Shown: piece after piece, positions 13,212-48,452 of the stretch | Layout of the letters: every line of letters starts with the position of its first letter | Position numbering within the stretch: the stretch's first letter is position 1 | Origin: Caldovatus sediminis | GTDB lineage: Bacteria > Pseudomonadota > Alphaproteobacteria > Acetobacterales > Acetobacteraceae | Assembly: GCF_014644455.1 (NCBI RefSeq) | Contig: NZ_BMKS01000001.1 | Span: forward strand, 441,409 to 505,408 | Reading direction: 5' to 3' | DNA length: 64,000 nt | Translations under genes and position numbers: made by a program | Notes under the pieces: model-generated | What the model saw: only the letters and a program-made list of their open reading frames with translations | Database searches by the model: none | Told to the model about the DNA's origin: nothing

Positions 13212-14090
13212 ATGCGCAACGGCATCACCATCGGCGACGTCACCATCACCAGCGTCATCGAGCGCGACGGCCCCTGGCGCACGCCGGAGGCGATGTTCCC
13301 GGCCTACGACCCCGAGGTGGGGCGCCGCCACCTGGCGGAGATGGACCCCTTCGTCTTCGACCCCGCCTCCGGCCGCATGGTCATCACCTACCAGACCTTC
13401 GTCGTCCGCACCCCGCGCCACACCATCCTGATCGACACCTGCACCGGCGAGGACAAGGGCTACGCCCCGCCCTTCGACTTCCCGAAGCGGGCCTGGCTGG
13501 ACAACTTCGCCGCGCAGGGCCTGCGCTTCGAGGACATCGACTACGTCTTCTGCACCCACCTGCACATCGACCATTGCGGCTGGAACACGCGCCTGGTGAA
13601 CGGCCGCTGGGTGCCGACCTTCCCCAGGGCGAAGTACGTCTTCCACAAGCGCGAATACGCCTTCTGGGAGGCCGCGACCGCGCGCGGCGAGAACCCGCCC
13701 GGCGAGGTCTGGCGCATGAACTGCCTGCCCGTCGTCGAGGCCGGCCAGGCGCTGCTGGTGGACGACGACTTCGCCCTCGACGACACGGTGACGCTGACGC
13801 CGACGCCGGGCCACGCGCCCTGCCACTGCTGCGTCAACATCCACTCGCGCGGGCAGCGCGCGGTCGTCACCGGCGACCTGATGCACCACGCGCTGCAGTG
13901 CCGCGAGCCGGACTGGTCCACGGTGTTCGACTGGGACCCGGCGCTGGCGGCGCAGTCGCGGCGCCGCTTCCTCAGCGCGACGGCCGGGACCGACACGGTC
14001 GTCCTGCCGGTCCACTTCCCCGCGCCCACCGCCGGCCGCATCGAGGCCGACGGCGCGGCGCGGTTCCGCTACCGCTTCCTGAAGCGCTAG
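13212..14090 (+). CDS. Metallo-beta-lactamase-fold hydrolase
   Basis: This 292-residue zinc hydrolase carries the hallmark HTHLHIDHCGW (His-x-His-x-Asp-His, around residues 115-121). Further metal ligands are TPGHAPCHC, the TGDLMHH aspartate and a late VHFPAPTAG. The N-terminal strand part (ITIGDVTITSVIERDGP) and the IDTCTGEDKG loop are typical of the quorum-quenching-lactonase/MBL hydrolase group. It has no signal peptide and is probably cytosolic. The substrate, perhaps a lactone or ester, is unknown. Its start has GGGAGGA upstream. Its TAG stop forms the first three bases of copy 2 of the 105-bp repeat. Confidence 0.87.
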   Translation: MRNGITIGDVTITSVIERDGPWRTPEAMFPAYDPEVGRRHLAEMDPFVFDPASGRMVITYQTFVVRTPRHTILIDTCTGEDKGYAPPFDFPKRAWLDNFAAQGLRFEDIDYVFCTHLHIDHCGWNTRLVNGRWVPTFPRAKYVFHKREYAFWEAATARGENPPGEVWRMNCLPVVEAGQALLVDDDFALDDTVTLTPTPGHAPCHCCVNIHSRGQRAVVTGDLMHHALQCREPDWSTVFDWDPALAAQSRRRFLSATAGTDTVVLPVHFPAPTAGRIEADGAARFRYRFLKR

Positions 14091-14192
14091 AGCCGTTTTC
14101 GCTCGGCTGTGCTCGCTGCAACGGCTCCAGCTTGTTGTTTGCCGAGCCGATTCACGCTTCCGGCTGTTCCCGGCCGTCCGCGATCGGCTCTA
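14088..14192. repeat. 105-bp dispersed repeat with terminal inverted ends, copy 2
   Basis: Both ends are perfect: TAGAGCCG on the left and its complement CGGCTCTA on the right. Length equals copy 1 (8497-8601) exactly, with 7 mismatches. The repeat fills the whole space between two convergent genes: the plus-strand hydrolase stop TAG is bases 1-3, and the minus-strand VOC gene stop is the last three bases. Inner arms CTCGGC and GCCGAG allow a hairpin. TA at both outer ends would fit a TA target duplication. Confidence 0.82.
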
Positions 14193-14597
14193 GGCGGCCG
14201 GCGCCGCCATCTCCACCAGCTCGACCAGCACGCCCGCGGTCGAGCGCGGGTCGAGGAAGGCGATGCGGTGCCCGCCATGCCCGGTGCGCGGCGCCTCGTC
14301 GAGCAGCGCCACGCCCTTGCCGCGCAGCTCGGCGAGCGCCGCCTCGATGTCCTCGACCTCGAGGCAGATGTGGTAGAGGCCCTCGCCCCGCTGCTCGATC
14401 CACTCCCCGGTGCGGGTGCCCTCCCGCTGCGGCTCGAGCAGCTCCAGCGCGGATTCGCCGATCGGCAGCATCGCCAGGCGGACGCCGTTGATCGTCTCCT
14501 CGTGGTCGCAGGCGATCCCGAGCGTCTCGAAGGTGCGGCGCGCCGCGTCCAGGTCCCGCACCGCGATCGCGACGTGCTCGATGCGCTTGATCCTCAT
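14190..14597 (-). CDS. VOC-family protein, methylmalonyl-CoA epimerase-like
   Basis: This 135-residue protein belongs to the vicinal-oxygen-chelate superfamily. It has the paired beta-alpha-beta-beta-beta modules, starting with RIEHVAIAVRDLDAARRTFE (metal-ligand His8) and then GLYHICLEVEDIEAALAELR (second His). The C-terminal VLVELVE strand supplies the Glu ligand. The segment HGGHRIAFLDPRSTAGVLVE matches methylmalonyl/ethylmalonyl-CoA epimerases, which interconvert (2R) and (2S) acyl-CoA epimers in propionate or ethylmalonyl-CoA metabolism. The length is right for that family. The start at 14597 has GGAGAG upstream. It diverges from the aminotransferase operon over 151 bp. Its stop codon is built from the end of the 105-bp repeat. 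Confidence 0.82.
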   Translation of the reverse strand: MRIKRIEHVAIAVRDLDAARRTFETLGIACDHEETINGVRLAMLPIGESALELLEPQREGTRTGEWIEQRGEGLYHICLEVEDIEAALAELRGKGVALLDEAPRTGHGGHRIAFLDPRSTAGVLVELVEMAAPAA

Positions 14598-14748
14598 CCG
14601 CCGCTCTCCTTCCGGGCCGGGCCGCGGGCAGTCTGGCACGGCGCGGCGGCGGGCGGAACCGCCGCGGAGGGCATGGCGCCGCGGGCGGCGGGGGTCTAGG
14701 CTCGCCGCCGACCCCCGCGCCGGGGCGGCAGGAATCGGGAGCCATCGC

Positions 14749-16059
14749 ATGAGTGGGATCACGCGCAGCGAGGCCGAGCTGGCGCTCGTGGAGCGCGCGC
14801 GCCGGGTGCTGCCGGCGGGCGGCTTCGGCAACGTCTCCTTCGACATCGTCATCCGCGAGGGCCGCGGCGGCCGGGTCTGGGACGTCAGCGGCAACGAGTA
14901 CGTGGACTTCCTGCTCGGCTCCGGCCCGATGTTCGTCGGCCACGCCCATCCCGAGGTGGTCGCGGCGGTGCGGGAGCAGCTCCCGAAGGGCTTCACCTTC
15001 TTCGCCAACAACGAGCCCGGCATCGTGCTGGCGGAGAGGATCGTCGAGGCCGTGCCCTGCGCCGAGCAGCTCCGCTACGTCTCCACCGGCACCGAGGCCG
15101 ACCTCTACGCCATGCGCGCCGCCCGCGCCTTCCGCGGGCGCGAGAAGATCGTGAAGTTCGAGGGCGGCTACCACGGCATGAGCGACTACTCGCTGATGAG
15201 CCTCGCCCCGAGGCGCCCGGCGAACTTCCCGCGTCCGGTGCCGGATTCCGCCGGCATCCCGCGCAGCGTCGAGGACGAGGTGCTGATCGCCCCCTTCAAC
15301 GACGTCGCGGCGGTGGAGCGCCTGATCGAATCGCGCCACGACGAGATCGCCGGCGTGATCGTCGAGCCCTTCCAGCGCCTGCTGCCGCCCGCGCCGGGCT
15401 TCCTCCAGGCGCTGCGCGAGATCACCGCGCGCTTCGGCATCCCGCTGATCTTCGACGAGGTCGTCACCGGCTTCCGCTTCGCCTGGGGCGGCGCGCAGGA
15501 ATACTACGGCGTCACGCCGGACCTCTGCACCCTCGGCAAGATCGTCGGCGGCGGCTTCCCGCTCGCGGCGATCGCCGGGCGGGCGGAGATCATGGCGCAT
15601 TTCGACCGTTCGCGCGTCGGCGAGGACCGCTTCCTCTTCCAGGTCGGCACGCTCTCCGGCAACCCCGTCGCCGCGGTGGCCGGCCTCGCCACGCTCGACA
15701 TCCTGCGCCGCCCGGGCGCCTACGAGCGCGTCTTCGCCACCGGCCGCGCGCTGATGGAGGGCTTCGCGCAAGTCCTCCGCGAGGCGGGCGTGCCGGGCCG
15801 GGTGGTGGGCGAGCCGCCGCTGTTCGACGTGTTCTTCGCCGAGGGCGAGATGCGGGACTACCGCGCCACGCTGCGCGCCGACGCGGCGAAGCAGCGCCAC
15901 GTCAACGCGGCGCTCCGGGCGCGCGGCGTACTGAAGGGCGACAGCAAGTTCTACGTCTCGCTCGCGCACGACGAACGCGACGTGGCGCAGACGCTGGACG
16001 CCTTCCGCCACGCCATCGCCACGCTGCCGGGCGAGCGCGCTTCGGCCGCGCCGGAGTGA
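14749..16059 (+). CDS. Class III PLP aminotransferase / glutamate-1-semialdehyde aminomutase-like
   Basis: This PLP enzyme of 436 residues is similar in layout to HemL. It contains RVLPAGGFGNVSFD, VWDVSGNEYVDFLLGSGPM, GHAHPEVVAAV, STGTEADLYAMRAARAF, the cofactor-contact Asp in LIFDEVVTGFR, and the Schiff-base Lys264 in CTLGKIVGGGFPLAAIAG. The second substrate-binding part includes FQVGTLSGNPVAA. True HemL usually reads NSGTEA at the cofactor phosphate site; here it is STGTEA. That, with its place at the head of a catabolic set, argues for an amine or amino-acid substrate rather than haem synthesis. It is the first of six co-directional genes (to 21094). It begins with an ATG after a GGAATCGGGAG sequence. 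Confidence 0.87.
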   Translation: MSGITRSEAELALVERARRVLPAGGFGNVSFDIVIREGRGGRVWDVSGNEYVDFLLGSGPMFVGHAHPEVVAAVREQLPKGFTFFANNEPGIVLAERIVEAVPCAEQLRYVSTGTEADLYAMRAARAFRGREKIVKFEGGYHGMSDYSLMSLAPRRPANFPRPVPDSAGIPRSVEDEVLIAPFNDVAAVERLIESRHDEIAGVIVEPFQRLLPPAPGFLQALREITARFGIPLIFDEVVTGFRFAWGGAQEYYGVTPDLCTLGKIVGGGFPLAAIAGRAEIMAHFDRSRVGEDRFLFQVGTLSGNPVAAVAGLATLDILRRPGAYERVFATGRALMEGFAQVLREAGVPGRVVGEPPLFDVFFAEGEMRDYRATLRADAAKQRHVNAALRARGVLKGDSKFYVSLAHDERDVAQTLDAFRHAIATLPGERASAAPE

Positions 16060-16145
16060 GGCGCGGCGCCGGCGCGGGGCGCTTGACCTCCGCGCCCGGT
16101 CGCCGCAGCCTCGCCATCGCCGGGCAAGAAGGGGGAGATGCCGTC

Positions 16146-17162
16146 ATGCCGCACCCAGGCCGCCGCCTGCTGCTGGGGGCCGCAGCCCTCGCCGCGCTCG
16201 CCGCGCCGCGCGCCGCCGCCCTGGCCCAGCCGGCGGGCGGCGCAGCGGCCGCAGACTGGCCGCGCCGCACCGTCACGATCATCGTCCCCGCCGCGCCCGG
16301 GGGCACGCTCGACGCGCTGGCGCGCTTCCTCGCCCAGGCGATGGGCCCTGCGCTCGGCCGCAACGTGGTGGTGGAGAACGTCAGCGGCGGCAGCGGCCTC
16401 GTCGGGCTGCAGCGGGCGATGCGGGCGGAGGCGGACGGGCACACCCTGGTCTTCGGCAACATGGGCATCTTCGCCGCCCTCGTCGCGATGAACCCGGACG
16501 CCGGCTTCGATCCGCGCCGCGACCTCGCCCCGGTCGGGCTGGTCGCGCACGTGCCGATGGTGCTCTCCGCCGGGCCGCGCAGCGGCATCCGCACCCTCTC
16601 CGACCTGCTCGACCACATCCGCCGCAACGGCGACCGAGCGACCTTCGGCACCGCCGGCGTCGGCACGACGAGCCATCTCGCGCCCGCCTACCTGCTTCAC
16701 CTGACGGGGCTGAAGGCCACGCTCGTCTCCTACCGCGGCGCGGGGCCGGCGATGAACGACCTCGCCGCCGGCGTGGTGGACGCGGTGATCGACCAGACCG
16801 TGACGATGATCCCGGCGCACCGCGGCGGCACCGCGGTCGCGCTCGCCGTCAGCGCGCGCGAGCGGATCCCGCAGCTCCCGGACATTCCGACCTTCGCGGA
16901 GGCCGGCGTGCCGGCCTTCGACCTCGTGGTGTGGAACGCTCTCGCCGCGCCGCGCGGCACGCCGCCGGGCGTGATCGCGCGGCTGGCGGAGGCGATCGAG
17001 GCGGCGTTGAACGACGGCGAGATGCGCCGGCGCCTCTCCGATCTCGCCGCGATCATCCCGGCGGCGGAGGAGCGCGGCCCGCAGGCGCTCGGCGCCCTGA
17101 TCCAGCGCGACGTCGCGAAATGGATCGAGGTCGTGCAGCAGACCGGACTCTCGCGCCAGTGA
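16146..17162 (+). CDS. Bug/TctC-type tripartite tricarboxylate receptor (1)
   Basis: This is a periplasmic solute-binding protein of 338 residues. It has an export signal (RRLLLGAAALAALAAPRAAALA) and a mature start DWPRRTVTIIVPAAPGGTLDALARF, the usual Bug signature with the ligand-binding PAAPGG loop. Later motifs are VVVENVSGGSGLVGLQ, ADGHTLVFGN, VSYRGAGPAMNDLAAG (second ligand loop) and LPDIPTFAEAG. Such receptors feed carboxylates to TctA/TctB permeases; neither permease gene is present here. It lies 86 bp behind the aminotransferase gene, and its TGA overlaps the GTG start of the next gene by 4 bp, so translation is probably coupled. Confidence 0.9.
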   Translation: MPHPGRRLLLGAAALAALAAPRAAALAQPAGGAAAADWPRRTVTIIVPAAPGGTLDALARFLAQAMGPALGRNVVVENVSGGSGLVGLQRAMRAEADGHTLVFGNMGIFAALVAMNPDAGFDPRRDLAPVGLVAHVPMVLSAGPRSGIRTLSDLLDHIRRNGDRATFGTAGVGTTSHLAPAYLLHLTGLKATLVSYRGAGPAMNDLAAGVVDAVIDQTVTMIPAHRGGTAVALAVSARERIPQLPDIPTFAEAGVPAFDLVVWNALAAPRGTPPGVIARLAEAIEAALNDGEMRRRLSDLAAIIPAAEERGPQALGALIQRDVAKWIEVVQQTGLSRQ

Positions 17163-17941
17163 GCGCGGAGTACGAGGTCCACGCGATCCGCTACGCCACG
17201 CGCGACGGGCGGCGCGACCACATGTTCGTGGACGCCGACCCGCACGACGGCCCGATGCCGATGGACTACTTCGTCTGGGTCGCGCGGAGCGCGGACCGCG
17301 TGGTCGCGATCGATTCCGGCTTCTCGCGCGAGGTCGCGGAGCGCCGCGGTCGGACCTTCCTGCGCTGCCCGGCGGAGTCGCTGCGGCTGCTCGGCATCGC
17401 GCCGGAGGCCGTCTCCGACGTGATCCTGACGCACCTGCACAACGACCACGCCGGCAACCTGGACAGGTACCCGAACGCCCGCTTCCACCTGCAGGAGCGC
17501 GAGATGGCCTTCGCCACCGGCAGGCACATGCGCTTCGCCTGCTGCGGCCGCGCCTACGAGCTCGACCAGGTGCTGGAGGCGGTGCGGCTGAACTACGCCG
17601 GCCGGGTGGAGTTCCACGCCGGCGAGGACGAGATCGCCGACGGCGTCACCGTCCATCCCGGCGGCGGCCACACGCCGGGCCTGCAGTTCGTGCGCGTGCG
17701 GACCCGGCGCGGCTGGCTCGTGCTCGCCTCCGACGCCAGCCACTACTACGAGAACATCGAGGCGATGCGGCCCTTCCGGCTGGTGTTCGACGTCGGCGCC
17801 GCGCTCGACTCCTTCCAGGCCGTGCGCCGGCTGGCGGGCGGCGACATCGGGCGGGTGATCCCGGGACACGACCCGGAGGTGATGCGCCGCTACCCGGCGC
17901 CGCGCCCCGAGCTCGAGGGCATCGTCGCGCGGCTGGACTGA
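17159..17941 (+). CDS. Metallo-beta-lactamase-fold hydrolase, AHL-lactonase-like
   Basis: This 260-residue zinc hydrolase has the motif LTHLHNDHAGNLDRYP, giving HxHxDH plus the following Ala-Gly typical of N-acyl-homoserine-lactonase relatives. HPGGGHTPGLQFVRV, LASDASHYYENI and VIPGHDP complete the metal-binding set. No signal peptide is present. Translation should start at the GTG at 17159, which overlaps the upstream receptor's stop codon in a GTGA arrangement. Within a catabolic operon it more likely opens a lactone or cyclic intermediate than quenches quorum signals, but this is inference. The next receptor gene starts 22 bp later with GGGAGGAAA before it. Confidence 0.87.
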   Translation: MSAEYEVHAIRYATRDGRRDHMFVDADPHDGPMPMDYFVWVARSADRVVAIDSGFSREVAERRGRTFLRCPAESLRLLGIAPEAVSDVILTHLHNDHAGNLDRYPNARFHLQEREMAFATGRHMRFACCGRAYELDQVLEAVRLNYAGRVEFHAGEDEIADGVTVHPGGGHTPGLQFVRVRTRRGWLVLASDASHYYENIEAMRPFRLVFDVGAALDSFQAVRRLAGGDIGRVIPGHDPEVMRRYPAPRPELEGIVARLD

Positions 17942-17963
17942 ACCCCGAGGGAGGAAACGCGCC

Positions 17964-18956
17964 ATGACGCACCGCACGAAGACGCGCCGCCGCGCGCTGC
18001 TCGCCACCGCCGCCGCGGCCCCCGTGGCGCTCGGCCTCCGCCCCGCCGCGGCGCAGGACTGGCCGAGCCGGCCGATCCGCCTCGTCGTCGGCTTCCCGCC
18101 CGGCGGCTCCAACGACATCGTCGCGCGCATCCTCGCGCCGAAGCTCACCGCCCTGCTCGGCGGCGCGACCGTGGTGGTGGAGAACCGCACCGGCGCCAAC
18201 GGCACGATCGGCGCCGACAGCGTCGCGCGCGCCGCGCCGGACGGCTACACCTTCCTGCTCGCCAGCGCGAGCGTCGTGGCCATCAGCATGGCCACCTTCC
18301 CGAACCTGCCCTACGACACGCTGCGCGACTTCGCGCCCGTCACCATGGTCGGCATGACGCCGGAACTGCTGGCGGTGAACCCGCAGGTGCCCGCGCGCAC
18401 GCTGCAGGAGGTGATCGCGCTCGCCCGCACGCGCGACCTGCACTTCTCCTCCTCCGGCAACGGCGGCCTGCCGCACCTCGCGATCGAGCTGCTGCGCAAG
18501 GTCGCGGGGGAGCGCATCATCCACGTCCCCTATCGCGGCGCGGTCGCGGCGGCGGTGGACGCGATCAACGGCCAGGTGCAGGGCATCATCATGGACCTGC
18601 CGGCGATCCACAGCATGGCGCGCGAGGGCAAGCTGCGCGCGATCGCGGTCACCGCCAACGCGCGCTCGCCGCTGATGCCCGACGTGCCGACCTCGGTCGA
18701 GCAGGGCGTGCCCTCGCTGATCGCGGTCAACTGGTTCACCGTCGTCGCGCCGGCGCGCACGCCGGAGGCGGTCGTGAACCGGATGCACGCGGCGCTGACC
18801 CGGGCAGTCAACGATCCGGAGGTCCGCGAGCAGTACACCCGCGCCGGCGTGGAGCCGCTGACCTCGCCCTCCCCCGCGGCCTGCCGCGAGTACCTCGCCG
18901 CCGAGATCGAGCGCTGGGGCGCGATCGCGCGCGAGGCCGGGGCGCGGGCGTCGTAG
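17964..18956 (+). CDS. Bug/TctC-type tripartite tricarboxylate receptor (2)
   Basis: This is a second receptor of 330 residues in the same operon. It has a twin-arginine-like signal (KTRRRALLATAAAAPVAL) and a mature start QDWPSRPIRLVVGFPPGGSNDIVARI. It shows VVVENRTGANGTIGADSV, APDGYTFLLASAS, HVPYRGAVAAAVDAINGQ and MPDVPTSVEQGV, all standard for the family. It differs enough from its neighbour (for example FPPGG against PAAPGG) that the two probably bind different ligands. No TctA/TctB genes accompany it. A GGGAGGAAA ribosome-binding site precedes the ATG. The PrpF-like gene starts 17 bp downstream, so both are likely co-transcribed. Confidence 0.91.
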   Translation: MTHRTKTRRRALLATAAAAPVALGLRPAAAQDWPSRPIRLVVGFPPGGSNDIVARILAPKLTALLGGATVVVENRTGANGTIGADSVARAAPDGYTFLLASASVVAISMATFPNLPYDTLRDFAPVTMVGMTPELLAVNPQVPARTLQEVIALARTRDLHFSSSGNGGLPHLAIELLRKVAGERIIHVPYRGAVAAAVDAINGQVQGIIMDLPAIHSMAREGKLRAIAVTANARSPLMPDVPTSVEQGVPSLIAVNWFTVVAPARTPEAVVNRMHAALTRAVNDPEVREQYTRAGVEPLTSPSPAACREYLAAEIERWGAIAREAGARAS

Positions 18957-18973
18957 CGGCGGGGGCGGCCGCG

Positions 18974-20146
18974 ATGGCGAGGCCCGTGCGCTGCGTCATC
19001 ATGCGCGGCGGCACCAGCAAGGCGGTGTTCCTGCGCGAGGCCGACCTGCCGCAGGACCGCGCCGAGCGCGACCGCATGATCCTCGCGATCTTCGGCTCCC
19101 CGGACCGGCGCCAGATAGACGGGCTCGGCGGCGCCGATCCGCTGACCAGCAAGCTCGCCATCATCGGCCCGCCGCGCGAGGACGATCCGCGCGCGGCGGG
19201 CACCCACCTCACCTACACCTTCGGCCAGGTGGAGATCGAGCGCCCGGAGATCGACTGGCTCAGCCTCTGCGGCAACATCAGCGCCGCGGTCGGCGCCTAC
19301 GCGGTGTACGAGGGCCTCGTCGCGCCGCGCGCGCCGGTCACGGCCGTGCGCGCCTTCAACACCAATCTCGGCCGCGTGCTGACCATCGAGGTCCCGGTCG
19401 AGGGCGGGCGTCCGCTGGAGCGCGGCGACTACGTCGTGCCGGGCGTGCCGGGCAGCGGCGCGCGCATCCTGATCGACTTCGCCGACACCGCCGGCGCGGC
19501 GACGGGGCGCGGCGTGCTGCCGACCGGCAACCCGGTGGACGTGCTGGAGGTGCCCGGGCTCGGCGCCATCGAGGCCTCGCTCCTGGACATCGGCAACGCC
19601 CACGTGTTCGTCCGCGCGCGCGACCTCGGCCTCGCCGGCACCGAGGGCGCGGCGCGCCTGGATGCGGACCGCGACCTGCGCGAGCGCCTGGAGCGCATCC
19701 GCGGCGCCGCGGCCGAGCGCATGGGCCTGATCGCCGACGCCGCCCGCTCGCGCGAGGAGAGCCCGGCGGCACCGATCCTCGGCATCGTCGGCCCGCCCGC
19801 CGGCTACGCGCGCGAGCTCGGCGGCGGCACGGTGCGGGCGGAGGAGGTGGACCTGGTCGCCCGCCTGATGTTCATGCAGCAGGCGCACAAGACCTATGCC
19901 GGCACCAGCACCGTCTGCACCGGCGTCGCCAGCCGCCTGCCCGGCACCGTGGTGCACGAGGCCGCCCGGCCGGGCGCGCACAACCGGCTCACGCTGCGCA
20001 TCGGCCACCCCGCCGGGGTGATCGAGACCGAGAGCGAGGTCGCGCAGCGCGCCGACGGCGCGATCTTGGTGCGGCGCGCCACGCTCGGCCGCACCGCAAG
20101 GCGCATCCTGGAGGGCACCGTCTTCGTGCCGGAGGCGGCGGGCTGA
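18974..20146 (+). CDS. PrpF-family isomerase (4-oxalomesaconate tautomerase / aconitate isomerase-like)
   Basis: This is a cytosolic isomerase of 390 residues, the normal family length. It starts with VRCVIMRGGTSKAVFLREADLP, the PrpF fingerprint. It continues with IDGLGGADPLTSKLAII, the cysteine-containing LCGNISAAVGAYAVYEGL, VRAFNTNLGRVLTIEVP and the second-half HKTYAGTSTVCTGVASRLPGT. Members move a double bond in tricarboxylates: PrpF isomerises methylaconitate, and GalD isomerises oxalomesaconate in gallate breakdown. Which one applies here is open; no prpC, prpD or acnD gene is nearby, which disfavours methylcitrate metabolism. An RraA-like aldolase lies 1 kb away on the other strand, which would suit an oxalomesaconate-like route. 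Confidence 0.88.
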   Translation: MARPVRCVIMRGGTSKAVFLREADLPQDRAERDRMILAIFGSPDRRQIDGLGGADPLTSKLAIIGPPREDDPRAAGTHLTYTFGQVEIERPEIDWLSLCGNISAAVGAYAVYEGLVAPRAPVTAVRAFNTNLGRVLTIEVPVEGGRPLERGDYVVPGVPGSGARILIDFADTAGAATGRGVLPTGNPVDVLEVPGLGAIEASLLDIGNAHVFVRARDLGLAGTEGAARLDADRDLRERLERIRGAAAERMGLIADAARSREESPAAPILGIVGPPAGYARELGGGTVRAEEVDLVARLMFMQQAHKTYAGTSTVCTGVASRLPGTVVHEAARPGAHNRLTLRIGHPAGVIETESEVAQRADGAILVRRATLGRTARRILEGTVFVPEAAG

Positions 20147-20215
20147 CGATTCCCCTCACCCGCGCCGCCCGGCCGCGCTAGGCTTCCCCGGCGACGCGAC
20201 GAGGAGGAGGCACGC

Positions 20216-21094
20216 ATGGCCGACCTGTCCTTCCGCCCCCTGACCCCGGACGGGCGCTTCGGCGCCGAGGTGATCGGCGCGCCGCCCGACCTCGCGGTGG
20301 ACGAGGCGGCGTTCCGCCGCATCGAGGACGCCTGGTACCGCCACTCCGTCCTGCTCTTCCGCGGCCTCTCCCTGATGCCGGAGCAGCATATCGCCTTCAC
20401 CCGCCGCCTCGGCCCGCTGCACATCATGGTGCCGACGGACTACAACCTCGAGGGCCATCCGGAGGTCTTCGTCGTCGGCAATGCCGAGGAGGGCGGCAAG
20501 GCGGTCGGGCTGCGCCGCGCCGGCATGGGATTCCACAGCGACGGCGAGGACAAGGCGATCCCCAACGCGGGCTCCTTCCTCTACGCGATCCAGGTGCCGC
20601 CGGAGGGCGGCGACACGCTCTTCGCCGACATGTACGCCGCCTGGGATGCGCTGCCGGAGGCGACGAAGCGCCGCCTCGCCGGCCGCCGCGCGCGCTTCAG
20701 CCGGATCGCGCTGCACCACGTCCACTACCCCCACCTGCCGCCGCTGACCGAGCAGCAGAAGCGCGAGCGCCCCGACGTGTGGCACCCGATCGCCCGCAAG
20801 CATCCGCGCACCGGCCGCACGGCGCTCTACATCGGCCGCTGGGCGGTGGAGATCGAGGGCATCCCGGCGGAGGAAGGCAAGGCGCTGATCGCCGAGCTCG
20901 TCGCCTTCGCGCAGCGGCCGGAATTCCTCTACCGCCACGTCTGGCGGCAGGGCGACGCCGTGCTGTGGGACAACCGCTGCACCCAGCACTGCGCCACGCC
21001 CTTCGACGAGGCGCGCTATACGCGGCGCATGCACCGCACCACGCTGGAGGGCGAGGCGCCGCTGCTCGCGGAGGTGCCGCAGGCGGCGGCCTGA
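20216..21094 (+). CDS. TauD/TfdA-family Fe(II)/2-oxoglutarate dioxygenase
   Basis: This 292-residue enzyme has a complete facial triad: His107 and Asp109 in GFHSDGED, and the distal His258 in NRCTQHCATPFDE. The 2-oxoglutarate-binding Arg274 is in RRMHRTTLEG. The N-terminal part AWYRHSVLLFRGLSLMPEQHIAFTRRLG is typical of TauD/TfdA and clavaminate-synthase-like enzymes. Such enzymes hydroxylate a carboxylate, sulfonate or phenoxyacetate-type substrate, often releasing part of it. The substrate here is unknown. It is the last gene of the six-gene set, 69 bp behind the PrpF-like gene, and converges with the RraA-like gene with only 10 bp between stops. A CGAGGAGGAGG sequence precedes the start. 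Confidence 0.9.
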   Translation: MADLSFRPLTPDGRFGAEVIGAPPDLAVDEAAFRRIEDAWYRHSVLLFRGLSLMPEQHIAFTRRLGPLHIMVPTDYNLEGHPEVFVVGNAEEGGKAVGLRRAGMGFHSDGEDKAIPNAGSFLYAIQVPPEGGDTLFADMYAAWDALPEATKRRLAGRRARFSRIALHHVHYPHLPPLTEQQKRERPDVWHPIARKHPRTGRTALYIGRWAVEIEGIPAEEGKALIAELVAFAQRPEFLYRHVWRQGDAVLWDNRCTQHCATPFDEARYTRRMHRTTLEGEAPLLAEVPQAAA

Positions 21095-21104
21095 CCGCAG
21101 CGGT

Positions 21105-21773
21105 TCAGCCGCGCTTCATCGCCGCGGCCACCTGCGCGCCGGCGCCGCTGATCTCATGCAGCCTCTCGCCGGCGCGCAGCCGGCGGATCGTCTCGGGTTC
21201 CGCCGCCTGGCGCCGCAGCGCCTCCTCCACGACCCATTCGATCTGTTCCGGACGGACGACGACGATGCCGCTCTCGTCGGCGAGGATCGCGTCGCCCGGG
21301 CGCACCATCACGCCGCCGCAGCTCACCGGCACGCAGAAGGCGCCGGAGAGGCCGAGGCGCTTCACCGTCACCGGCGAGGGACCGCGGCACCAGACCGGCA
21401 CGCCGGTGCGGCGGATCTCCTCGAAGTCCGTCGCCGGCCCGTCGATCGCCGCGCCGGCGACGCCCGCGACCTCGGCGGCGATCTCCACCACGCCGCCCCA
21501 GCAGGCGTGGCGGTGGTCGCCCGCGCGGTCCACCACCATGAAGTCACCGGGCCGCGCATGGCCGATCGCGTAGTGCATCATCGTCCCGTCCAGCGGCGGC
21601 ACCAGCACGGTGACGGCGGTGCCGGCGACGCGCCGGTCGGGGATCACTGCGCGCAGCGCCGGGTCCATGAACTGACTGTGCAGGAAGTGGCCGATCGTCG
21701 CGGTCTCGCATTGCGCGAGGCGGGCCAGGCGCTCCGGCGCGATCGGGGGTGGCAGCTCTCCGACGGTGAACAT
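21105..21773 (-). CDS. RraA-family protein (4-hydroxy-4-methyl-2-oxoglutarate aldolase-like)
   Basis: This 222-residue protein has the RraA fold signatures: ETATIGHFLHSQFMDPALR, AGTAVTVLVPPLDGTMMHYA, MVVDRAGDHRHACWGGVVE, AAIDGPATDFEEIRRTGVPV and VRPGDAILADESGIVVV. In this family the Gly-x-x-Asp loops bind a divalent metal and the 2-oxo acid. Catabolic members cleave 4-hydroxy-4-methyl-2-oxoglutarate or 4-carboxy-4-hydroxy-2-oxoadipate to pyruvate and another oxo acid. An unrelated RNase E inhibitor role exists in enterobacteria and is unlikely here. It is the last gene of the transporter operon, with AGGAGGGA before its start and 23 bp between it and the permease gene. Confidence 0.86.
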   Translation of the reverse strand: MFTVGELPPPIAPERLARLAQCETATIGHFLHSQFMDPALRAVIPDRRVAGTAVTVLVPPLDGTMMHYAIGHARPGDFMVVDRAGDHRHACWGGVVEIAAEVAGVAGAAIDGPATDFEEIRRTGVPVWCRGPSPVTVKRLGLSGAFCVPVSCGGVMVRPGDAILADESGIVVVRPEQIEWVVEEALRRQAAEPETIRRLRAGERLHEISGAGAQVAAAMKRG

Positions 21774-21796
21774 GGCGGACGGTCCCTCCTTGCGGT

Positions 21797-22621
21797 TCAG
21801 CGGCGCCGGCCGGGGTCGGCGTAGAGGAAGTCCCCGATCGGCACGAATCGCTCGAGCAGCGCGATCAGGACGAGCGGGATGACGAGGCTCAGCATGGACA
21901 CCGCGGCGAGGGTCGGCGCGAAGCCGAACTCCAGGAAGGCGAGGATCGCCACCGTCACCGGCCGCTCGCCGGGGCTCGCCAGGAACAGCGAGAGGTTGAC
22001 GTCGGTGAAGGAGTGCACGAAGGCGAAGGCCGTCCCGGCGAAGACGCCGCCGCTGATCACGGGGAAGGTGACGCGGCGCAGCACCACGTGCGGCGGTGCG
22101 CCGAGACTCGCCGCCGCTGCCTCGAGCTGGGGCGGCATGGCGCGCAGCGACACCGCGACGGTGCGCACGCAGAAGGGCAGGCTGATCACCACATGGCCGA
22201 TCAGCAGGCCCCAGAACCCGACCAGCGCGCCGAGGCCGAGCACGTGCAGGAACTGCAGCAGCGCGATGCCGGTGACGAGCGTCGGCAGCACCAGCGGCCC
22301 GACGACCAGCGCCTCCACCAGCGCCTTGCCGCGGAACCGCCGGCGCACCAGCGCGAAGGCGAGCGGCGCCCCGATCGCGGCGCTGACCAGGGCGGTCAGC
22401 GCCGCGAGCCGCAGGCTGAACCCCATCGGCTCCCACCACCGCGCCGAGAAGGCCTCGCCCCACCAGCGCAGCGAGAAGCCCTCCGGCGGGAAGACAGAGC
22501 GCGCGCTGCCGTTGAACGACACCGCGGCGGTGATGAGGATGGGTCCCAGAGCGAAGGCGAACACCGCCGCGACGACGGCGCGCAGCGCGATCCAGGGCCC
22601 GTCCGCGCCGCCGCTCCTCAT
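21797..22621 (-). CDS. ABC transporter permease, PotC-like
   Basis: This inner-membrane subunit of 274 residues has about six hydrophobic helices. They begin with IALRAVVAAVFAFALGPIL and end with LAAVSMLSLVIPLVLIALLE. The cytoplasmic EAA loop that docks the ATPase reads EAAAASLGAPPHVVLRRV. It matches the second permease (PotC/PotI type) of spermidine/putrescine-like importers. Its start overlaps the stop of the PotB-like gene in an ATGA arrangement, so translation is coupled. The RraA-like gene follows after 23 bp. No ATPase gene occurs in this operon. Confidence 0.92.
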   Translation of the reverse strand: MRSGGADGPWIALRAVVAAVFAFALGPILITAAVSFNGSARSVFPPEGFSLRWWGEAFSARWWEPMGFSLRLAALTALVSAAIGAPLAFALVRRRFRGKALVEALVVGPLVLPTLVTGIALLQFLHVLGLGALVGFWGLLIGHVVISLPFCVRTVAVSLRAMPPQLEAAAASLGAPPHVVLRRVTFPVISGGVFAGTAFAFVHSFTDVNLSLFLASPGERPVTVAILAFLEFGFAPTLAAVSMLSLVIPLVLIALLERFVPIGDFLYADPGRRR

Positions 22622-23466
22622 GCCGGCGCCGCCGTGCCGCGCCGCGCGCCGCCGCCCAGGAGGCCCGCGACCGCCAGCAGCGCGAGCGCGCTCGCCAGCA
22701 GGATGACGCCCATCGCCGAGCCGAGACCCCAGTCAAGCAGCACCAGCATGAAGTTGCGGATCATGGTCGCCATCGTCTCGGTCGCCGGGCCGCCGAGGAT
22801 GGCTGGCGTCGCATAGGCCCCGATCGCGATCGCGAAGGCGAGGATGAAGCCCGCCGCCACGCCGGGCAGCGTCAGCGGCAGCGTCACCCGCCAGAAGGTG
22901 CGCGCGGGCGAGGCGCCGAGGCTCAGCGCCGCGCGCTCCAGCGCCGGGTCCATGGCGTTGAGCGCGCTCATGATGGACAGCACCCCGTAGGGCAGCAGCG
23001 CGTGCGCGAGGCCGACGATGATCGCCGGCGTCGAGGGCAGGAAGCGCAGCGGCCGCTCGACCAGTCCCGCCCAGAGCAGCAGCGAGTTCAGCGCCCCGTC
23101 CTGGTTCAGAATCACGTACCAGCCATAGGTGCGCACGATCACGCTCGCCAGCAGCGGCGCGAGCGAGAGCGCGATCAGCGCGCCCTTCCAGCGCGAGCGC
23201 GTGCGCACCAGGAAGTAAGCCAGCGGGTAGGCGAGCAGCACCACCAGCAGCCCGACGAAGAAGCCCACGACGAAGGTGCGCAGGATCACCCCGCGGTAGA
23301 GCGGGCTCGACAAAATCAGGCGGAAATTGTCGATCGTCGGCTGGTCCTGGGGGATCATGCCCTCGGCGATCAGCACGCTCGCCGAGAACAGGTAGGCCGT
23401 CGGCGCGGCGAAGCAGAGCAGCAGGAAGGCGCAGGGCAGGGCGACCAGCGGCAAGCCGCGGGGCAT
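22618..23466 (-). CDS. ABC transporter permease, PotB-like
   Basis: This is the first permease subunit (282 residues). It has an N-terminal helix GLPLVALPCAFLLLCFAAPTA, a periplasmic segment, then five more helices including VVGFFVGLLVVLLAYPLAYFL. The EAA loop is ERAALSLGASPARTFWRV. The layout fits the PotB/PotH type. The ATG at 23466 lacks a clear ribosome-binding site, though the gene starts only 20 bp after the receptor gene's stop. Together with the PotC-like subunit it should form the membrane channel for the receptor encoded upstream. Confidence 0.91.
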   Translation of the reverse strand: MPRGLPLVALPCAFLLLCFAAPTAYLFSASVLIAEGMIPQDQPTIDNFRLILSSPLYRGVILRTFVVGFFVGLLVVLLAYPLAYFLVRTRSRWKGALIALSLAPLLASVIVRTYGWYVILNQDGALNSLLLWAGLVERPLRFLPSTPAIIVGLAHALLPYGVLSIMSALNAMDPALERAALSLGASPARTFWRVTLPLTLPGVAAGFILAFAIAIGAYATPAILGGPATETMATMIRNFMLVLLDWGLGSAMGVILLASALALLAVAGLLGGGARRGTAAPA

Positions 23467-23486
23467 GGGCGGGTGGCGGCGCCGCC

Positions 23487-24602
23487 TCAGGTTCCCATGA
23501 TCTCCTGCCACTTCAGCGTCCATTCGCGGCGCCGGCGGCCGATCACCTCGCTGTCGGGGAATTCGATCTGGCGCATCCGCTCCTCCGTCGTGATCTGGGC
23601 GGAGGCGAATTCCGCCGGCCAGTCGGTGATGTCGGGCCGCCCGGGGCTCGACTTGTAGGCCAGGCTGAAGGCGCGCTGCACCTCCGGGTCGAGGCGGAAG
23701 TTCAGGAACTCGAAGGCGAGGCGCTTGTTGCGCGCGCCCACCGGCACCGCGGCGCAGTTGCCGAGGCCGATCGTGCCCTCGCGCGGGATGGTGAGGTCGA
23801 TCGGATGGCCGGTGTCGCGGTAGTACATGCTCCGCGCGCTCCAGTAGGGCGCGATCCACACCTGGCCGTTCTCGAAATAGGGCGCCGCCTGGGCGGAGGT
23901 GGTCACCACCACGCCGACCCAGGGCTTCTGCGCGCGCAGCATCGCCCAGGCCGGCTCCATGTTGTCCACGCCGCCGCCGCCGAGCTTCGCCGCCATGATC
24001 AGGGCATAGACGGCGAGCAGGTTGCCCGGGTTGAAGTTGATCACATGCCCGCGGATCATCTCGCCGTAGCGCGCGCCGGGCGACCAGTAGTCGGCCCAGG
24101 ATTCGGGTCTCGCGATGCGGTCCCGGTTCCAGATCAGCGCGGTGTACTGGTAGCTGTGGACGATGCCGCGGTCGGGGATGATCTCGCGGCTCTTCGCCCA
24201 GACGTGGCGCAGGTTCGGCACCTCGCGCTCGGTGATGCGCTCGAGCAGGTTCTCGCGCGCGCCGAGGATGATCTCGGGCGGCGTCAGCTCCGCCGCCACG
24301 TCGAAGCCCGGCGCGCCGCGCGAGGCGCGGATGCGGGCGTAGTCCTCCGAGGCGGTGCCGGCGTCGTCGTAGATCACGCGCACGCCGAACTTCCGCTCGA
24401 AGGGGCGCACCACGGTCGGGATGAACACGTCCTGGAACTCGCCGCCATAGGCGTTGACGGTGAGCGTCTCCGGCGTCTGGGCGACGATCGCCGGGGCGGC
24501 GAGCGGGGCGGCCGCGCCGCCCGCCGCCAGGCCGAGGACGCCCCGCCGGCCGATCGTTCCGCTGCCTTCGCCGGCCGTGCCGGGTCGAATGCGGTCGCCC
24601 AT
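23487..24602 (-). CDS. ABC transporter substrate-binding protein, PotD-like
   Basis: This is a periplasmic receptor of 371 residues that begins the transporter operon. A twin-arginine-like signal (IGRRGVLGLAAGGAAAPLAAPAIVA) is followed by ETLTVNAYGGEFQDVFIPTVV, typical of extracellular solute-binding family 1/8 (spermidine, putrescine, iron or 2-aminoethylphosphonate-type ligands). Other parts include GVRVIYDDAGTASEDYARI and the hinge VHSYQYTALIWNRDRI. The ligand is unknown; an anionic or amine compound is possible. The start at 24602 has GGAGGACAG upstream. The gene diverges from the LLM oxidoreductase gene across 185 bp, where a shared promoter region may sit. Confidence 0.87.
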   Translation of the reverse strand: MGDRIRPGTAGEGSGTIGRRGVLGLAAGGAAAPLAAPAIVAQTPETLTVNAYGGEFQDVFIPTVVRPFERKFGVRVIYDDAGTASEDYARIRASRGAPGFDVAAELTPPEIILGARENLLERITEREVPNLRHVWAKSREIIPDRGIVHSYQYTALIWNRDRIARPESWADYWSPGARYGEMIRGHVINFNPGNLLAVYALIMAAKLGGGGVDNMEPAWAMLRAQKPWVGVVVTTSAQAAPYFENGQVWIAPYWSARSMYYRDTGHPIDLTIPREGTIGLGNCAAVPVGARNKRLAFEFLNFRLDPEVQRAFSLAYKSSPGRPDITDWPAEFASAQITTEERMRQIEFPDSEVIGRRRREWTLKWQEIMGT

Positions 24603-24787
24603 GGCCCTGTCCTCCGCTCTCGCTGCGCTCGTCCGCGCGGCGCGCCTCCCGCGCGGATGGTAGGAACGCGCGGCCGCCAGCGTCAAACGAAAGCCGATGC
24701 CGCCCCGCCTTTCGCGCGCCGGTGTCCCCGTGGCAGCATGGCGGCCCGCCGCGGGCACGGCGGATCGAGGCCTGGGGAGCGCGAGAC

Positions 24788-25780
24788 GTGCGGTTCGGCC
24801 TGTTCGGCGGCGCCCGGACCGGGCGTGGCGCCGGCCCCTCCGATAGCCACGGCTATCAGGACTTCATCGAATACGTCGTGGAGGCGGAGCGACTCGGCTT
24901 CCACGGCGTCTTCCTGGTGGAGCACCACTTCACCGGCCAGGGCCAGGTCTCGGCCTCGATGACGCTGCTCGCCTACCTCGCGGCGCGCACCTCGCGCATC
25001 CGGCTCGGCACGGCGGTGGTGGTGCTGCCCTGGCACAACCCGGTGCTGGTGGCGGAGCAGGCGGCGACGCTCGACCTGCTCTCGGGCGGGCGGCTCGACC
25101 TCGGCGTCGGCAAGGGCTACCGCCGGGCCGAGTTCGCCGGCTTCTGCACGCCGATCGAGGAGGCGCAGGAGCGCTTCGACGAGGCGATCGAGGTCATCCG
25201 CAAGGCCTGGACCAGCGAGGGCCGCTTCAGCCACCGCGGCCGGCGCTGGCAGTTCCGGGACATCGTGGTGGAGCCGGAGCCGCTGCAACGCCCCCACCCG
25301 CCGCTCTGGCTCGCCGCCGGCAGCGAGGGCTCGATCCGCCGCGCCGCGCGCGAGGGCTACAACCTGCTGCTCGACCAGATCGCCTCCACCGACCAGATCG
25401 TCGAGCGCGTCGCCCTGTTCCGCGAGGAATGCGCCCGCGCCGGGCGCGCCTACGACCCGGCGATGGTCGGCGTCGCGCGCGGGCTGCAGCTCATCCACTC
25501 CGAGGCGGAACGCGCCGCGGCCTACGAGACCCGCGCCCGCGTCGTCGAGCGGATCGGCGACATCGCGCAGGGCACGCGCCGCGACGTGCCGATCGAGCAG
25601 GACGACGCGCCGCTGCTCGGCCTGCCCTCCGAGGTCGTCGCGCGGCTGAGGCGGCTGGAGGCCGGCGGCGTCGGCTACGTGCTCCTCGTGGACCCCAACG
25701 CCAGCGTCGCCGGCCTGCGCGCCTTCGCCGCCGAGGTGATGCCCGCCTTCGCCGCCGGCGGCGCGGCGGCCGTGCGGTAG
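24788..25780 (+). CDS. LLM-class flavin-dependent oxidoreductase (luciferase-like)
   Basis: This cytosolic flavoenzyme of 330 residues has the bacterial-luciferase TIM-barrel fold. It starts VRFGLFGGARTGRG and holds VVEAERLGFHGVFLVEHHF, SRIRLGTAVVVLPWHNPVLVAEQ, LDLLSGGRLDLGVGKGYRRAEF and PPLWLAAGSEGSIRRAAREG. Such enzymes use reduced FMN or F420 for monooxygenation; the pattern here is closest to FMN-type alkanal or nitrilotriacetate-like monooxygenases, with unknown substrate. The GTG at 24788 was chosen because GGGGAG lies before it and the conserved strand begins at once. Its TAG stop is the start of a 15-bp remnant of the 105-bp repeat. Confidence 0.88.
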   Translation: MRFGLFGGARTGRGAGPSDSHGYQDFIEYVVEAERLGFHGVFLVEHHFTGQGQVSASMTLLAYLAARTSRIRLGTAVVVLPWHNPVLVAEQAATLDLLSGGRLDLGVGKGYRRAEFAGFCTPIEEAQERFDEAIEVIRKAWTSEGRFSHRGRRWQFRDIVVEPEPLQRPHPPLWLAAGSEGSIRRAAREGYNLLLDQIASTDQIVERVALFREECARAGRAYDPAMVGVARGLQLIHSEAERAAAYETRARVVERIGDIAQGTRRDVPIEQDDAPLLGLPSEVVARLRRLEAGGVGYVLLVDPNASVAGLRAFAAEVMPAFAAGGAAAVR

Positions 25781-30256: not shown

Positions 30257-30646
30257 TCAGGCCGGGGTGAACATCGGGAAGGGCGGGCCGTCGCCCTCCG
30301 TCGGCTTGAACACCAGCTTGACCTTCTGGCCGATCTTCAGCGCGTCGAAGTCGCAGTCGACGATGTTGGTCATCATCGTCGGCCCTTCCTCGAGCGTGAC
30401 ATAGGCCATCACGTAGGGCTCCGGCGCCCGCTTCATCACGCTCAGGCTGTAGATCACGCCCCTGCCGGAGGCCGGGCGCCATTCCGTCCGGTCGCTGAAG
30501 CAGAACGGGCAGATGGCGCGCGGGTACCAGTGGTTCTTCCCGCAGCTCGCGCAGCCCTTGACGAGGAACCGGCCCTCGCGGGCCGCGGTCCAGAAGGGCT
30601 CGGTCTCCGGGTTGACGCCCGGGGCGGGAATCTTGCGGTCCGCCAT
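30257..30646 (-). CDS. DUF35 OB-fold/zinc-ribbon acyl-CoA-associated protein
   Basis: This 129-residue protein has an N-terminal helix (ETEPFWTAAREGRFLVKGC), a four-cysteine zinc ribbon (Cys32, Cys35, Cys46, Cys49) and a C-terminal OB fold (GVIYSLSVMKRAPEPYVMAYVTL, LKIGQKVKLVF). DUF35 proteins pair with thiolase-like or hydratase enzymes that act on acyl-CoA. In steroid side-chain breakdown such a domain binds an Ltp2-type aldolase. The thiolase-like gene sits immediately upstream, 5 bp away, so the two products very probably form a complex. The substrate is unknown. Confidence 0.9.
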   Translation of the reverse strand: MADRKIPAPGVNPETEPFWTAAREGRFLVKGCASCGKNHWYPRAICPFCFSDRTEWRPASGRGVIYSLSVMKRAPEPYVMAYVTLEEGPTMMTNIVDCDFDALKIGQKVKLVFKPTEGDGPPFPMFTPA

Positions 30647-30651
30647 CTCTC

Positions 30652-31818: not shown

Positions 31819-31936
31819 GCGACGGCGTCCCCTCCTCCTCGCTGCGATGCGGAACGGCGGGGCAGCTTACCGGTGCGGGGGGCGGGCGCAAGCCGGGCGC
31901 GGGCCAGGCGCGGCCCGCGCGCTCGTACTCCCGGCG

Positions 31937-32926: not shown

Positions 32927-33037
32927 GGGCCGTTCTCCTCCCGATCCGAAAGCCGCGTCCCGGGCTCCAGCCGGGGCCGGCGCCCTCCCCCGCCGGCGGC
33001 GCGGCGGGGAACCTGCCGGGGCGGCCCGGCCGCCCCC

Positions 33038-43263: not shown

Positions 43264-43935
43264 TCAGCCCCGCAGCGGCAGCCGGTCCGCGATCAGGAAA
43301 GGCGCATCGGGCGCCGCCTGGGCGAACAGGCAGAGTTCCCGCACCCGGCGGGGGCGCCCCGCGGCGGCGCCCAGCAGGGCCTCGGCCGCCGTCCGCACCG
43401 CGGGCAGGTCGGCCGGCGCGAGCCGGCACGTCAGCGTCACGTGGAAGCGCCACTCCTCCAGCACGTAGGGATAGCCCCAGCGCCGCAGCAGGGCCTGCTG
43501 CGGCGGGCTGAGATCGTGCCGCCGCCGCCGCTCGATCTCGTCGGCCGATGGCGGGGCGCGAAAGGCGTCGAGCTCCACCACGCAGGCATCGGCAAGGCGG
43601 CGGAGCTCGGCGCAAGGCACCGTCTCGCGCAGCGCCAGGAAGCCGTGCAGCGGCGCGACGCGCAGCGGCGGCAGCAGAAAGGGCCGGGTCCGCGCCGCCA
43701 GGGCCGCGGCCGCGGCATGCAGCTCCGGCCAGGGCGCGGCGAGGCGAAAGGGCGGCTTCAGCGTGGCGTGCAGGCCGTAGCGCCGCGGCTCTTCGGTCAG
43801 CGCCGCCAGGTCCAGGCCAGGGATCGCCGGCTGCGGCACGACTGCCCCGGTCTCGGCGTCGCGCCCCAACCAGCGGCTGCCCAGCGCATGCAGCGGGTCC
43901 GAGCGTTCCGGCGCCCAGTAGAGGGCCGCGCGCAT
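43264..43935 (-). CDS. DUF1045 phosphonate-metabolism 2H phosphoesterase-like protein
   Basis: This 223-residue protein is the last gene of the C-P lyase operon, 15 bp behind phnL. It has two His-x-Thr motifs, His56-x-Thr58 in GLHATLKPPF and His165-x-Thr167 in FHVTLTCRLA, the signature of 2H phosphoesterases that open cyclic phosphates or phosphodiesters. This DUF1045 family is found repeatedly in phn operons. Because phnP is missing here, it may hydrolyse the 1,2-cyclic phosphate left by the C-P lyase reaction; that is inference from motif and context. Start and length (ATG at 43935) fit the family. It should be cytosolic. Confidence 0.86.
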   Translation of the reverse strand: MRAALYWAPERSDPLHALGSRWLGRDAETGAVVPQPAIPGLDLAALTEEPRRYGLHATLKPPFRLAAPWPELHAAAAALAARTRPFLLPPLRVAPLHGFLALRETVPCAELRRLADACVVELDAFRAPPSADEIERRRRHDLSPPQQALLRRWGYPYVLEEWRFHVTLTCRLAPADLPAVRTAAEALLGAAAGRPRRVRELCLFAQAAPDAPFLIADRLPLRG

Positions 43936-43950
43936 GGTCGATTCCCCCGC

Positions 43951-47358: not shown

Positions 47359-47362
47359 CGGC

Positions 47363-48405: not shown

Positions 48406-48452
48406 CGGCTGGTCCGTGGCGGGTTCGTCTGGCTGGCGCGCCGCGTCATCGG

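Follow-up and report, generated by a model that had tools for sequence, protein, structure and literature searches.

The lower pathway of protocatechuate 4,5-cleavage and of gallate degradation comprises LigI, LigU, LigJ and LigK, with LigI belonging to another superfamily than the hydrolases of the metallo-beta-lactamase (MBL) fold. A further point of reference is the 3-methylitaconate delta-isomerase Mii (PDB 3g7k), which originates from Eubacterium barkeri and acts in nicotinate fermentation. The present analysis concerns a row of six co-directional genes in Caldovatus sediminis (Acetobacteraceae), located at positions 14749-21094 of a stretch of 64,000 nucleotides (NCBI RefSeq assembly GCF_014644455.1, contig NZ_BMKS01000001.1, positions 441,409 to 505,408), which is referred to as the window in its whole length. 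The row encodes a class III aminotransferase, two periplasmic receptors of the TctC (Bug) type, an MBL-fold hydrolase, a PrpF-family isomerase and a dioxygenase of the TauD/TfdA type, and the latter faces an RraA-like gene. In the annotated family of the MBL-fold hydrolase, BxdA of Microbacterium and Sphingobium from maize roots is reported to be a lactonase that converts MBOA (PMC11297187). A lactonase of another kind, 127 amino acids in length, has been described in an itaconate cluster (PMC9875883).

It is probable that the six genes represent three neighbouring modules, of which only the stretch from the first receptor to the isomerase (Bug1-MBL-Bug2-PrpF, module B) is a real unit, with a peripheral catabolic function. 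The aminotransferase (module A) precedes this unit, and the dioxygenase is grouped with the facing RraA-like gene and an ABC transporter (module C). The features are as follows:

14749-16059, plus strand: class III aminotransferase, similar to glutamate-1-semialdehyde aminomutase (GSAM), PF00202 (Aminotran_3), module A
16146-17162, plus strand: Bug1, TctC-type periplasmic receptor, PF03401 (TctC), module B
17159-17941, plus strand: MBL-fold hydrolase of the lactonase type (hereafter MBL), PF00753 (Lactamase_B), GTG start and 4-bp overlap, module B
17964-18956, plus strand: Bug2, TctC-type periplasmic receptor, PF03401 (TctC), module B
18974-20146, plus strand: PrpF-family isomerase (PrpF), PF04303 (PrpF), module B
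20216-21094, plus strand: TauD/TfdA-type 2-oxoglutarate dioxygenase (TauD), PF02668 (TauD), module C
21105-21773, minus strand: RraA-like protein (RraA), PF03737, facing TauD at a distance of 10 bp, module C
21797-24602, minus strand: ABC transporter of two permeases and a substrate-binding protein, module C
21797-22621, minus strand: first ABC permease, BPD_transp_1 profile match
22618-23466, minus strand: second ABC permease, named from position and look, not by profile
23487-24602, minus strand: ABC substrate-binding protein, SBP_bac profile match

The window has a GC content of 75%, and the assembly comprises 4.8 Mb in 43 contigs with a completeness of 98.6%. The six open reading frames are real genes, since active-site motifs are present in all four enzymes of the row (MBL, PrpF, TauD and the aminotransferase) and purifying selection is evident for five of the six, the ratio of nonsynonymous to synonymous substitution rates (dN/dS) against the sister genome G127 being 0.16 for the aminotransferase, 0.33 for Bug1, 0.14 for MBL, 0.31 for Bug2 and 0.26 for PrpF. 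TauD has no such value, as it is deleted in G127. The motif residues presumably have the catalytic roles usually assigned to them in these four enzymes. The ends of the six genes and the gaps of 86, -4, 22, 17 and 69 bp between them agree exactly with the initial annotation, and Pfam agrees with each family name given there, including that of RraA. The two wide gaps (86 and 69 bp) coincide with the module borders, and the spacing within module B is narrow (-4, 22 and 17 bp). A scan of 14100-24800 yielded one promoter-like site, at 24686 on the minus strand and outside the row (mean of 0.3 in shuffled sequences), and one terminator-like site (15799, within the aminotransferase; mean of 1.6 in shuffled sequences), and such single sites carry no information on transcript borders. 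All families of module B are known. As to their combination, a search of the open-licence literature in PubMed Central retrieved no matching paper, and the view that no named pathway has the gene combination of the row was likewise borne out by this search.

Deletion scars in two sister genomes divide the row

The six-gene row is divided into modules by deletion scars in two sister genomes of the same genus, and the complete row was found in no other genome examined. In G127, a single contig carries the aminotransferase, Bug1, MBL, Bug2 and PrpF intact (93, 83, 93, 88 and 91% identity), followed by ABC permeases. The aminotransferase is separated from Bug1 by 144 bp, and the spacing inside module B is -4, 27 and 11 bp. 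Between PrpF and the permease, TauD is reduced to approximately its first 30 bp, joined to a 71-bp RraA fragment and the start region of RraA. Because remnants of both genes persist at this site, TauD and RraA were once present in G127 and were then removed. The second scar lies in G047 (98% complete), where the match to the window runs up to 16458 in Bug1 and jumps to 18733 at the end of Bug2 with a broken frame. Thus, beside the aminotransferase only a decayed fusion of Bug1 and Bug2 is left and MBL is gone from the site, while the aminotransferase itself is 96% identical with a dN/dS of 0.13. A PrpF orthologue was not found in the G047 genome at E <= 1e-120; a PrpF paralogue of 45% and an MBL paralogue of 57% identity are encoded elsewhere in this genome.

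The distribution of the outer genes was followed in 150 genomes sampled from the family, which are also the source of the unbiased linkage figures for module B. The aminotransferase occurs at an identity of at least 64% in 51 of them, the own genome included. Gene calls in other genomes were made by a script written for this work, which missed some genes, among them the aminotransferase in one of the 13 aminotransferase loci that were compared. These 13 neighbourhoods, one of them from G047, have no partners in common across genera; the genes shared are confined to two same-genus pairs (15 genes between G112 and G024, two genes between G144 and G077) and three stray single matches. In another family genome, G005, aminotransferase and PrpF are located on separate large contigs (C1 and C6). 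In the aminotransferase of the window, the active-site residue K264 is present, and GSAM (2cfb, 318 bits) is the best solved relative, with scores below the NCBIfam cut-offs of NF000818 (375 vs 398 bits) and of the glutamate-1-semialdehyde aminomutase model TIGR00713 (358.5 vs 527 bits). The aminotransferase is most likely a free-standing, widespread gene that came to lie 5' of module B, and it probably does not belong to the catabolic unit. Transamination as a step of the same pathway, as suggested by the initial annotation, does not fit a gene with this distribution that has stayed intact in the decayed locus of G047.

TauD exhibits the motif H107-x-D109, H258 and R270. Its best solved relative is 6d1o, named (R)-phenoxypropionate dioxygenase (158 bits), and it scores 157 bits against a cut-off of 313 in the NCBIfam equivalog model for taurine dioxygenase (NF007104). 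Relatives with at least 65% identity were detected in three of the 150 family genomes, the own one included, and the other two have no PrpF nearby. In G064, one strand carries a cupin-like gene (by eye), RraA (53%), TauD (67%), a second TauD-family gene (38%), a binding protein (61%), permeases (62 and 57%) and an ATPase-like gene, and no gene of module A or B was seen near them in the 19 kb read. As both stand beside the same transporter in G064, TauD and RraA are assigned to the facing ABC unit of the window, and module C would serve another substrate than module B. The second TauD-family gene of G064 (locus L162, 10464-11237; 38% to that of the window) directly follows the TauD orthologue within the RraA/ABC unit. 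Accordingly, the postulated 2-oxoglutarate-dependent oxidation in the same pathway as the other steps is not borne out, as TauD was lost together with RraA in G127 and stands with the ABC transporter in G064.

RraA carries T115-D116 (in DGPATD) where 3noj and 5x15 have R-D, and thus lacks the arginine of the residue pair of the LigK-type HMG/CHA aldolases. The arginine of this pair presumably has an active-site role in RraA-type aldolases. The orthologue in G064 (L162) likewise has T-D. Pyruvate release by the RraA of the window, which had been proposed as the final step, is doubtful, since threonine replaces the aldolase arginine.

Linkage and predicted function of the four-gene unit

Bug1-MBL-Bug2-PrpF (16146-20146) is the only convincing unit of the row and is operon-like. 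PrpF orthologues of at least 68% identity occur in six of the 150 family genomes, the own included, with weaker relatives (up to 47%) in more of them, and MBL was detected at E <= 1e-80 in 37. Both are present in four genomes (G000, which is the genome of the window, G127, G005 and G003), and in all four they are at most 2.1 kb apart. An order-wide search of 299 genomes revealed PrpF orthologues (at least 66%) in nine, again including the own one; another of the nine, G337, has the order PrpF-OYE-MBL-PrpD-Bug, in which OYE denotes an old-yellow-enzyme reductase. The same order is found in Roseomonas strains, in which PrpF is one gene away from MBL. Moreover, PrpF (73%) adjoins MBL (62%) in Afifella, and the same holds for a sphingomonad (71 and 56%).

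In addition, the surroundings of MBL were compared in the best 80 of 392 confirmed relatives among the matches listed. As these loci were chosen by MBL similarity, they give no unbiased rate for Bug2 or PrpF without MBL. Two of them, L055 and L123, are one Roseomonas rosea region under two names with the same MBL sequence, and the MBL copies of L039 and L066 contain one in-frame stop each. MBL is directly followed by a Bug gene in 28 of 86 usable places of the 80 loci; nine of these genes are Bug2 relatives of at least 53% identity and 19 are less similar. Every Bug2 match of at least 50% over 200 aligned residues in these loci is located directly after MBL. The script left MBL uncalled in 12 of the 80 loci; of the 68 loci with a called MBL, 33 have a Bug gene within three genes of it, 22 PrpD, 22 OYE, 17 HIBDH, 14 CMD and three PrpF. 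By tblastn, PrpF of at least 68% was located near MBL in five of the 80 loci, two of which had been missed by the gene caller. In the MBL tree, the copies nearest to that of the window belong to G127, to Rubritepida, where Bug2 comes next, and, with moderate support (88/95), to Afifella, where PrpF stands in front, and the betaproteobacterial copies linked to Bug2 form another clade. From the catabolic set assumed in the initial annotation, the receptor, the lactonase-like hydrolase and the PrpF-type isomerase are thus retained on the basis of independent linkage, and the outer genes are not.

The metal site of MBL is complete (HxHxDH, dinuclear; H92, H94, D96, H97, H171, D192 and H237), and its ligands are kept in 101-102 of 102 relatives. 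An AlphaFold2 model (pLDDT 85) is closest to the lactonase 8x78 (Z 27.8 over 253 residues, root-mean-square deviation 2.9), followed by matches to GcL, AiiA, AiiB and 4-pyridoxolactonase. The Z-scores to lactonases range from 22 to 28 at approximately 19-26% identity (23-26% to 8x78). Based on this modelled fold, MBL is likely to open a lactone. PrpF matches PF04303 with 369 bits (cut-off 27) and scores 353 bits to 3-methylitaconate delta-isomerase (3g7k), 255 to PrpF 2pvz and 191 to 4-oxalomesaconate isomerase 6p3j. K60 and C99 are kept in all 42 relatives of at least 35% identity; a structure model of PrpF was poor (pLDDT 60) and was not used. As 3-methylitaconate isomerase is its nearest relative, the best guess from sequence is that PrpF shifts the double bond in an itaconate- or maleate-like acid.

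The two receptors match PF03401 with 162 and 211 bits (cut-off 27). The own genome of 4.8 Mb contains 101 TctC/Bug matches, of which 100 exceed the cut-off, beside eight TctA matches. None of the latter lies in the window, and module B has no TctA of its own; TctB was not searched. This orphan expansion of Bug receptors, in a genome with Roseomonas-type Acetobacteraceae among its close relatives, follows the pattern described for orphan TctC receptors (PMC5994714). With 101 such matches in the genome, the presence of a Bug gene next door carries little weight on its own.

We infer the reactions of module B, their order and their union in one pathway as follows. Bug1 and Bug2 would capture one or two related carboxylates, which might be handed to a permease, of the TctAB type or another, encoded at a different place in the genome. 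MBL would open a lactone or a similar cyclic ester to the hydroxy acid, and PrpF would move a C=C bond in the manner of 3-methylitaconate isomerase. The resulting isomer could then be used by housekeeping hydratases and lyases. As a whole, module B would use an unsaturated carboxylate or its lactone. Eight matches to lyases of the phosphoenolpyruvate (PEP)-mutase type were found in the own genome, with no tie to module B.

Alternative explanations and wider relevance

Several points weigh against the division into three modules with module B as the only unit. The genus is represented by three genomes (those of the window, G127 and G047), and G127 is 78% complete. The scar of G047 also cuts within module B, parting A from B and being silent on C. 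The exact order Bug1-MBL-Bug2-PrpF was seen in the window and G127 only, and MBL relatives stand more often beside PrpD, OYE, HIBDH or CMD than beside PrpF. In G090 and G144, MBL is missing both from the vicinity of the PrpF orthologue and, at E <= 1e-80, from the genome, and no MBL was seen beside PrpF in the four loci fetched out of five from the genus g99. Besides, the lactonase fold of MBL is no proof of lactonase activity. The support for module C comes for the most part from a single further genome, G064; the TauD orthologue of G014 is located near a different ABC transporter and without RraA, and an RraA match was absent from nine short loci of weaker TauD relatives (40-45%). Finally, G090 features Bug-PrpF-Bug followed by a TauD-family gene (L120) and then a CoA transferase-like gene, so that dioxygenases may team with PrpF in some lineages. 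This locus speaks for the initial annotation, its dioxygenase being one of another subfamily.

The rival explanations differ in how much of the row they regard as a unit. According to the most inclusive one, all six genes form a single pathway of uptake, transamination, lactone opening, double-bond shift and 2-oxoglutarate-dependent oxidation, with RraA releasing pyruvate. The shared strand, the short gaps and the locus of G090 speak in its favour, and as TauD lies 69 bp 3' of PrpF on the same strand, the two may be co-transcribed. Nevertheless, the aminotransferase is widespread without these genes, lies on a different large contig than PrpF in G005 and has survived whole beside the decayed remains in G047. 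TauD and RraA disappeared jointly from G127 and accompany the ABC transporter in G064, and RraA is devoid of the aldolase arginine. Together, these findings make this pathway quite improbable. The conservation of the six-gene order across genomes, a check called for by the initial annotation, failed as well, since relatives scatter the outer genes. In view of the deletion scars and these scattered relatives, a single six-gene pathway was rejected. The opposite explanation denies any unit and assumes that co-directional genes came together by chance in a genome that abounds in Bug receptors and catabolic enzymes, in line with the 101 TctC matches in 4.8 Mb and the exact order in two genomes only. 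It is unlikely, although less so than the six-gene pathway, because the 4-bp overlap and the gaps of 22 and 17 bp are kept in G127 with little change, MBL and PrpF are close neighbours in four of four family genomes holding both, and PrpF stands beside MBL in Afifella and a sphingomonad.

Two further explanations assign known functions to the enzymes. MBL might be a quorum-quenching acyl-homoserine lactonase with incidental neighbours, as its nearest fold is that of the acyl-homoserine lactone (AHL) lactonase 8x78. However, the low identity to the structural matches and the scores in the NCBIfam equivalog models AidB, AttM and AiiA (69, 59 and 54 bits vs cut-offs of 360, 390 and 375) do not favour AHL as the substrate, relatives of MBL sit among catabolic genes and Bug receptors, and BxdA of the same annotated family degrades the plant compound MBOA (PMC11297187). 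This role thus has a very low probability, below that of the six-gene pathway, and was rejected as the main function of MBL given scores far under the curated cut-offs. The counter-evidence is tempered by one plasmid copy of MBL near quorum-sensing and transfer genes: on pAA03 of Aminobacter aminovorans (L182, 6986-12360), a distant MBL relative (48%) follows a TRAP transporter, approximately 4 kb from LuxR-type and conjugal-transfer genes. A second MBL-fold hydrolase, AidB-like with 84 bits against the cut-off of 360, lies upstream of the row in the window (13212-14090). Least credible of all is a variant of the protocatechuate 4,5-cleavage or gallate lower pathway, in which MBL would stand for the PDC lactonase LigI, PrpF for LigU/GalD and RraA for LigK. 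In the known pathway, too, a lactonase is combined with a PrpF-family isomerase and an RraA-family aldolase, and the NCBIfam model OMA_tautomer scores PrpF with 290 bits, but this is below the cut-off of 440 of NF033377 (4-oxalomesaconate tautomerase), and PrpF is far nearer to Mii than to 6p3j. RraA lacks the arginine and goes with another module, and the extradiol dioxygenase family LigB (PF02900) has no match in the own genome, the same search giving matches in four of 14 control genomes. A protocatechuate-type pathway was rejected on the basis of the missing LigB family, the proximity of PrpF to Mii and the RraA without arginine.

Module B as a peripheral catabolic unit may, as a tentative and rather doubtful extension, represent one form of a catabolic route centred on this MBL family that is widespread but undescribed. 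Such a route would combine an MBL lactonase and TctC receptors with a varying set of PrpF/Mii-type isomerase, PrpD-type hydratase, old-yellow-enzyme reductase, HIBDH-type dehydrogenase and PEP-mutase-type lyase, and could serve the breakdown of plant or fungal unsaturated lactones or of alkylitaconate-like acids. If true, it would parallel the final steps of nicotinate fermentation, but aerobically and without B12. In many Proteobacteria, the MBL family is accompanied by the same small set of partner families. Its name often refers to quorum quenching, a role which most of the neighbourhoods read do not suggest, and a substrate for one member would help to annotate many. For the row itself, a vague six-step proposal has been narrowed to a four-gene unit with two enzymes assayable with a short compound list. 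Moreover, the case illustrates that deletion scars in sister genomes can take apart a tempting reading of an operon as a pathway.

Outside the row, the window contains on the minus strand a thiolase-like gene with a small zinc-ribbon-like partner, a Bug receptor and a flavin oxidoreductase-like gene (30257-34546); this receptor clusters with Bug proteins, and the other names in the group were given by eye. By the look of the translations, a block at 43264-53618, also on the minus strand, resembles a C-P lyase (phn) cluster.

Comparison with described systems

The closest characterized enzyme is Mii, with which the PrpF of the window shares 51% identity (191 of 371 aligned positions), K60 and the stretches C99-G-N and H305-K-T-Y-A-G-T. 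It differs by the accompanying TctC receptors and MBL, and other genes of nicotinate fermentation were not recognised beside it by eye and Pfam. For MBL, 4-pyridoxolactonase (3aj3/4keq) has the same fold (Z 22.5) but an identity of only 19%, and the corresponding NCBIfam model scores 40 bits against a cut-off of 325. BxdA offers a catabolic precedent in the annotated family of MBL, the comparison being at the level of annotation; the bxd genes reported in the available text encode an aldehyde dehydrogenase, a VOC protein and an NAD(P)-dependent oxidoreductase, unlike those of the window (PMC11297187).

The protocatechuate pathway resembles the locus in the joint presence of lactonase, PrpF-family isomerase and RraA-family aldolase. 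It differs in that LigI is of another superfamily, the PrpF of the window is nearer to Mii, RraA lacks the arginine and the genome lacks a LigB-family match. The nearest published region found comprises the DTDP genes of Advenella mimigardefordensis, which serve another purpose (PMC5373536). In this region, the genes for a PrpF and a dioxygenase lie close to those for a family III CoA transferase and a solute-binding receptor, but PrpF is the AcnD partner of methylcitrate genes and the dioxygenase is a 3-mercaptopropionate dioxygenase; in the available text, no lactonase-like gene is described and the word lactamase does not occur (PMC5373536).

Clusters around the same MBL family (approximately 50-62% identity) in Alcaligenaceae-like and Acetobacteraceae-like genomes complete the comparison, for which no paper was found in the open-licence literature of PubMed Central. 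In Alcaligenaceae-like loci (L073, L093 and L096, similarly L071 and L103), a LysR gene and the cluster OYE-MBL-Bug-Bug-PrpD-PrpD-MBL-Bug were observed, with two MBL paralogues from different clades; a search for this cluster in the same literature was likewise negative. The second type, CMD-HIBDH-(OYE)-MBL, recurs as a CMD-HIBDH-MBL cassette in several relatives and twice in the own genome (L124, 9706-11715, and L125, 7970-10078), with MBL copies of 55 and 52% identity to that of the row. The MBL of the window differs from both types in having no adjoining OYE, PrpD, HIBDH or CMD. The likeness lies in the downstream Bug gene, which is common in these clusters and at times Bug2-like, and in the Roseomonas type PrpF-OYE-MBL-PrpD-Bug.

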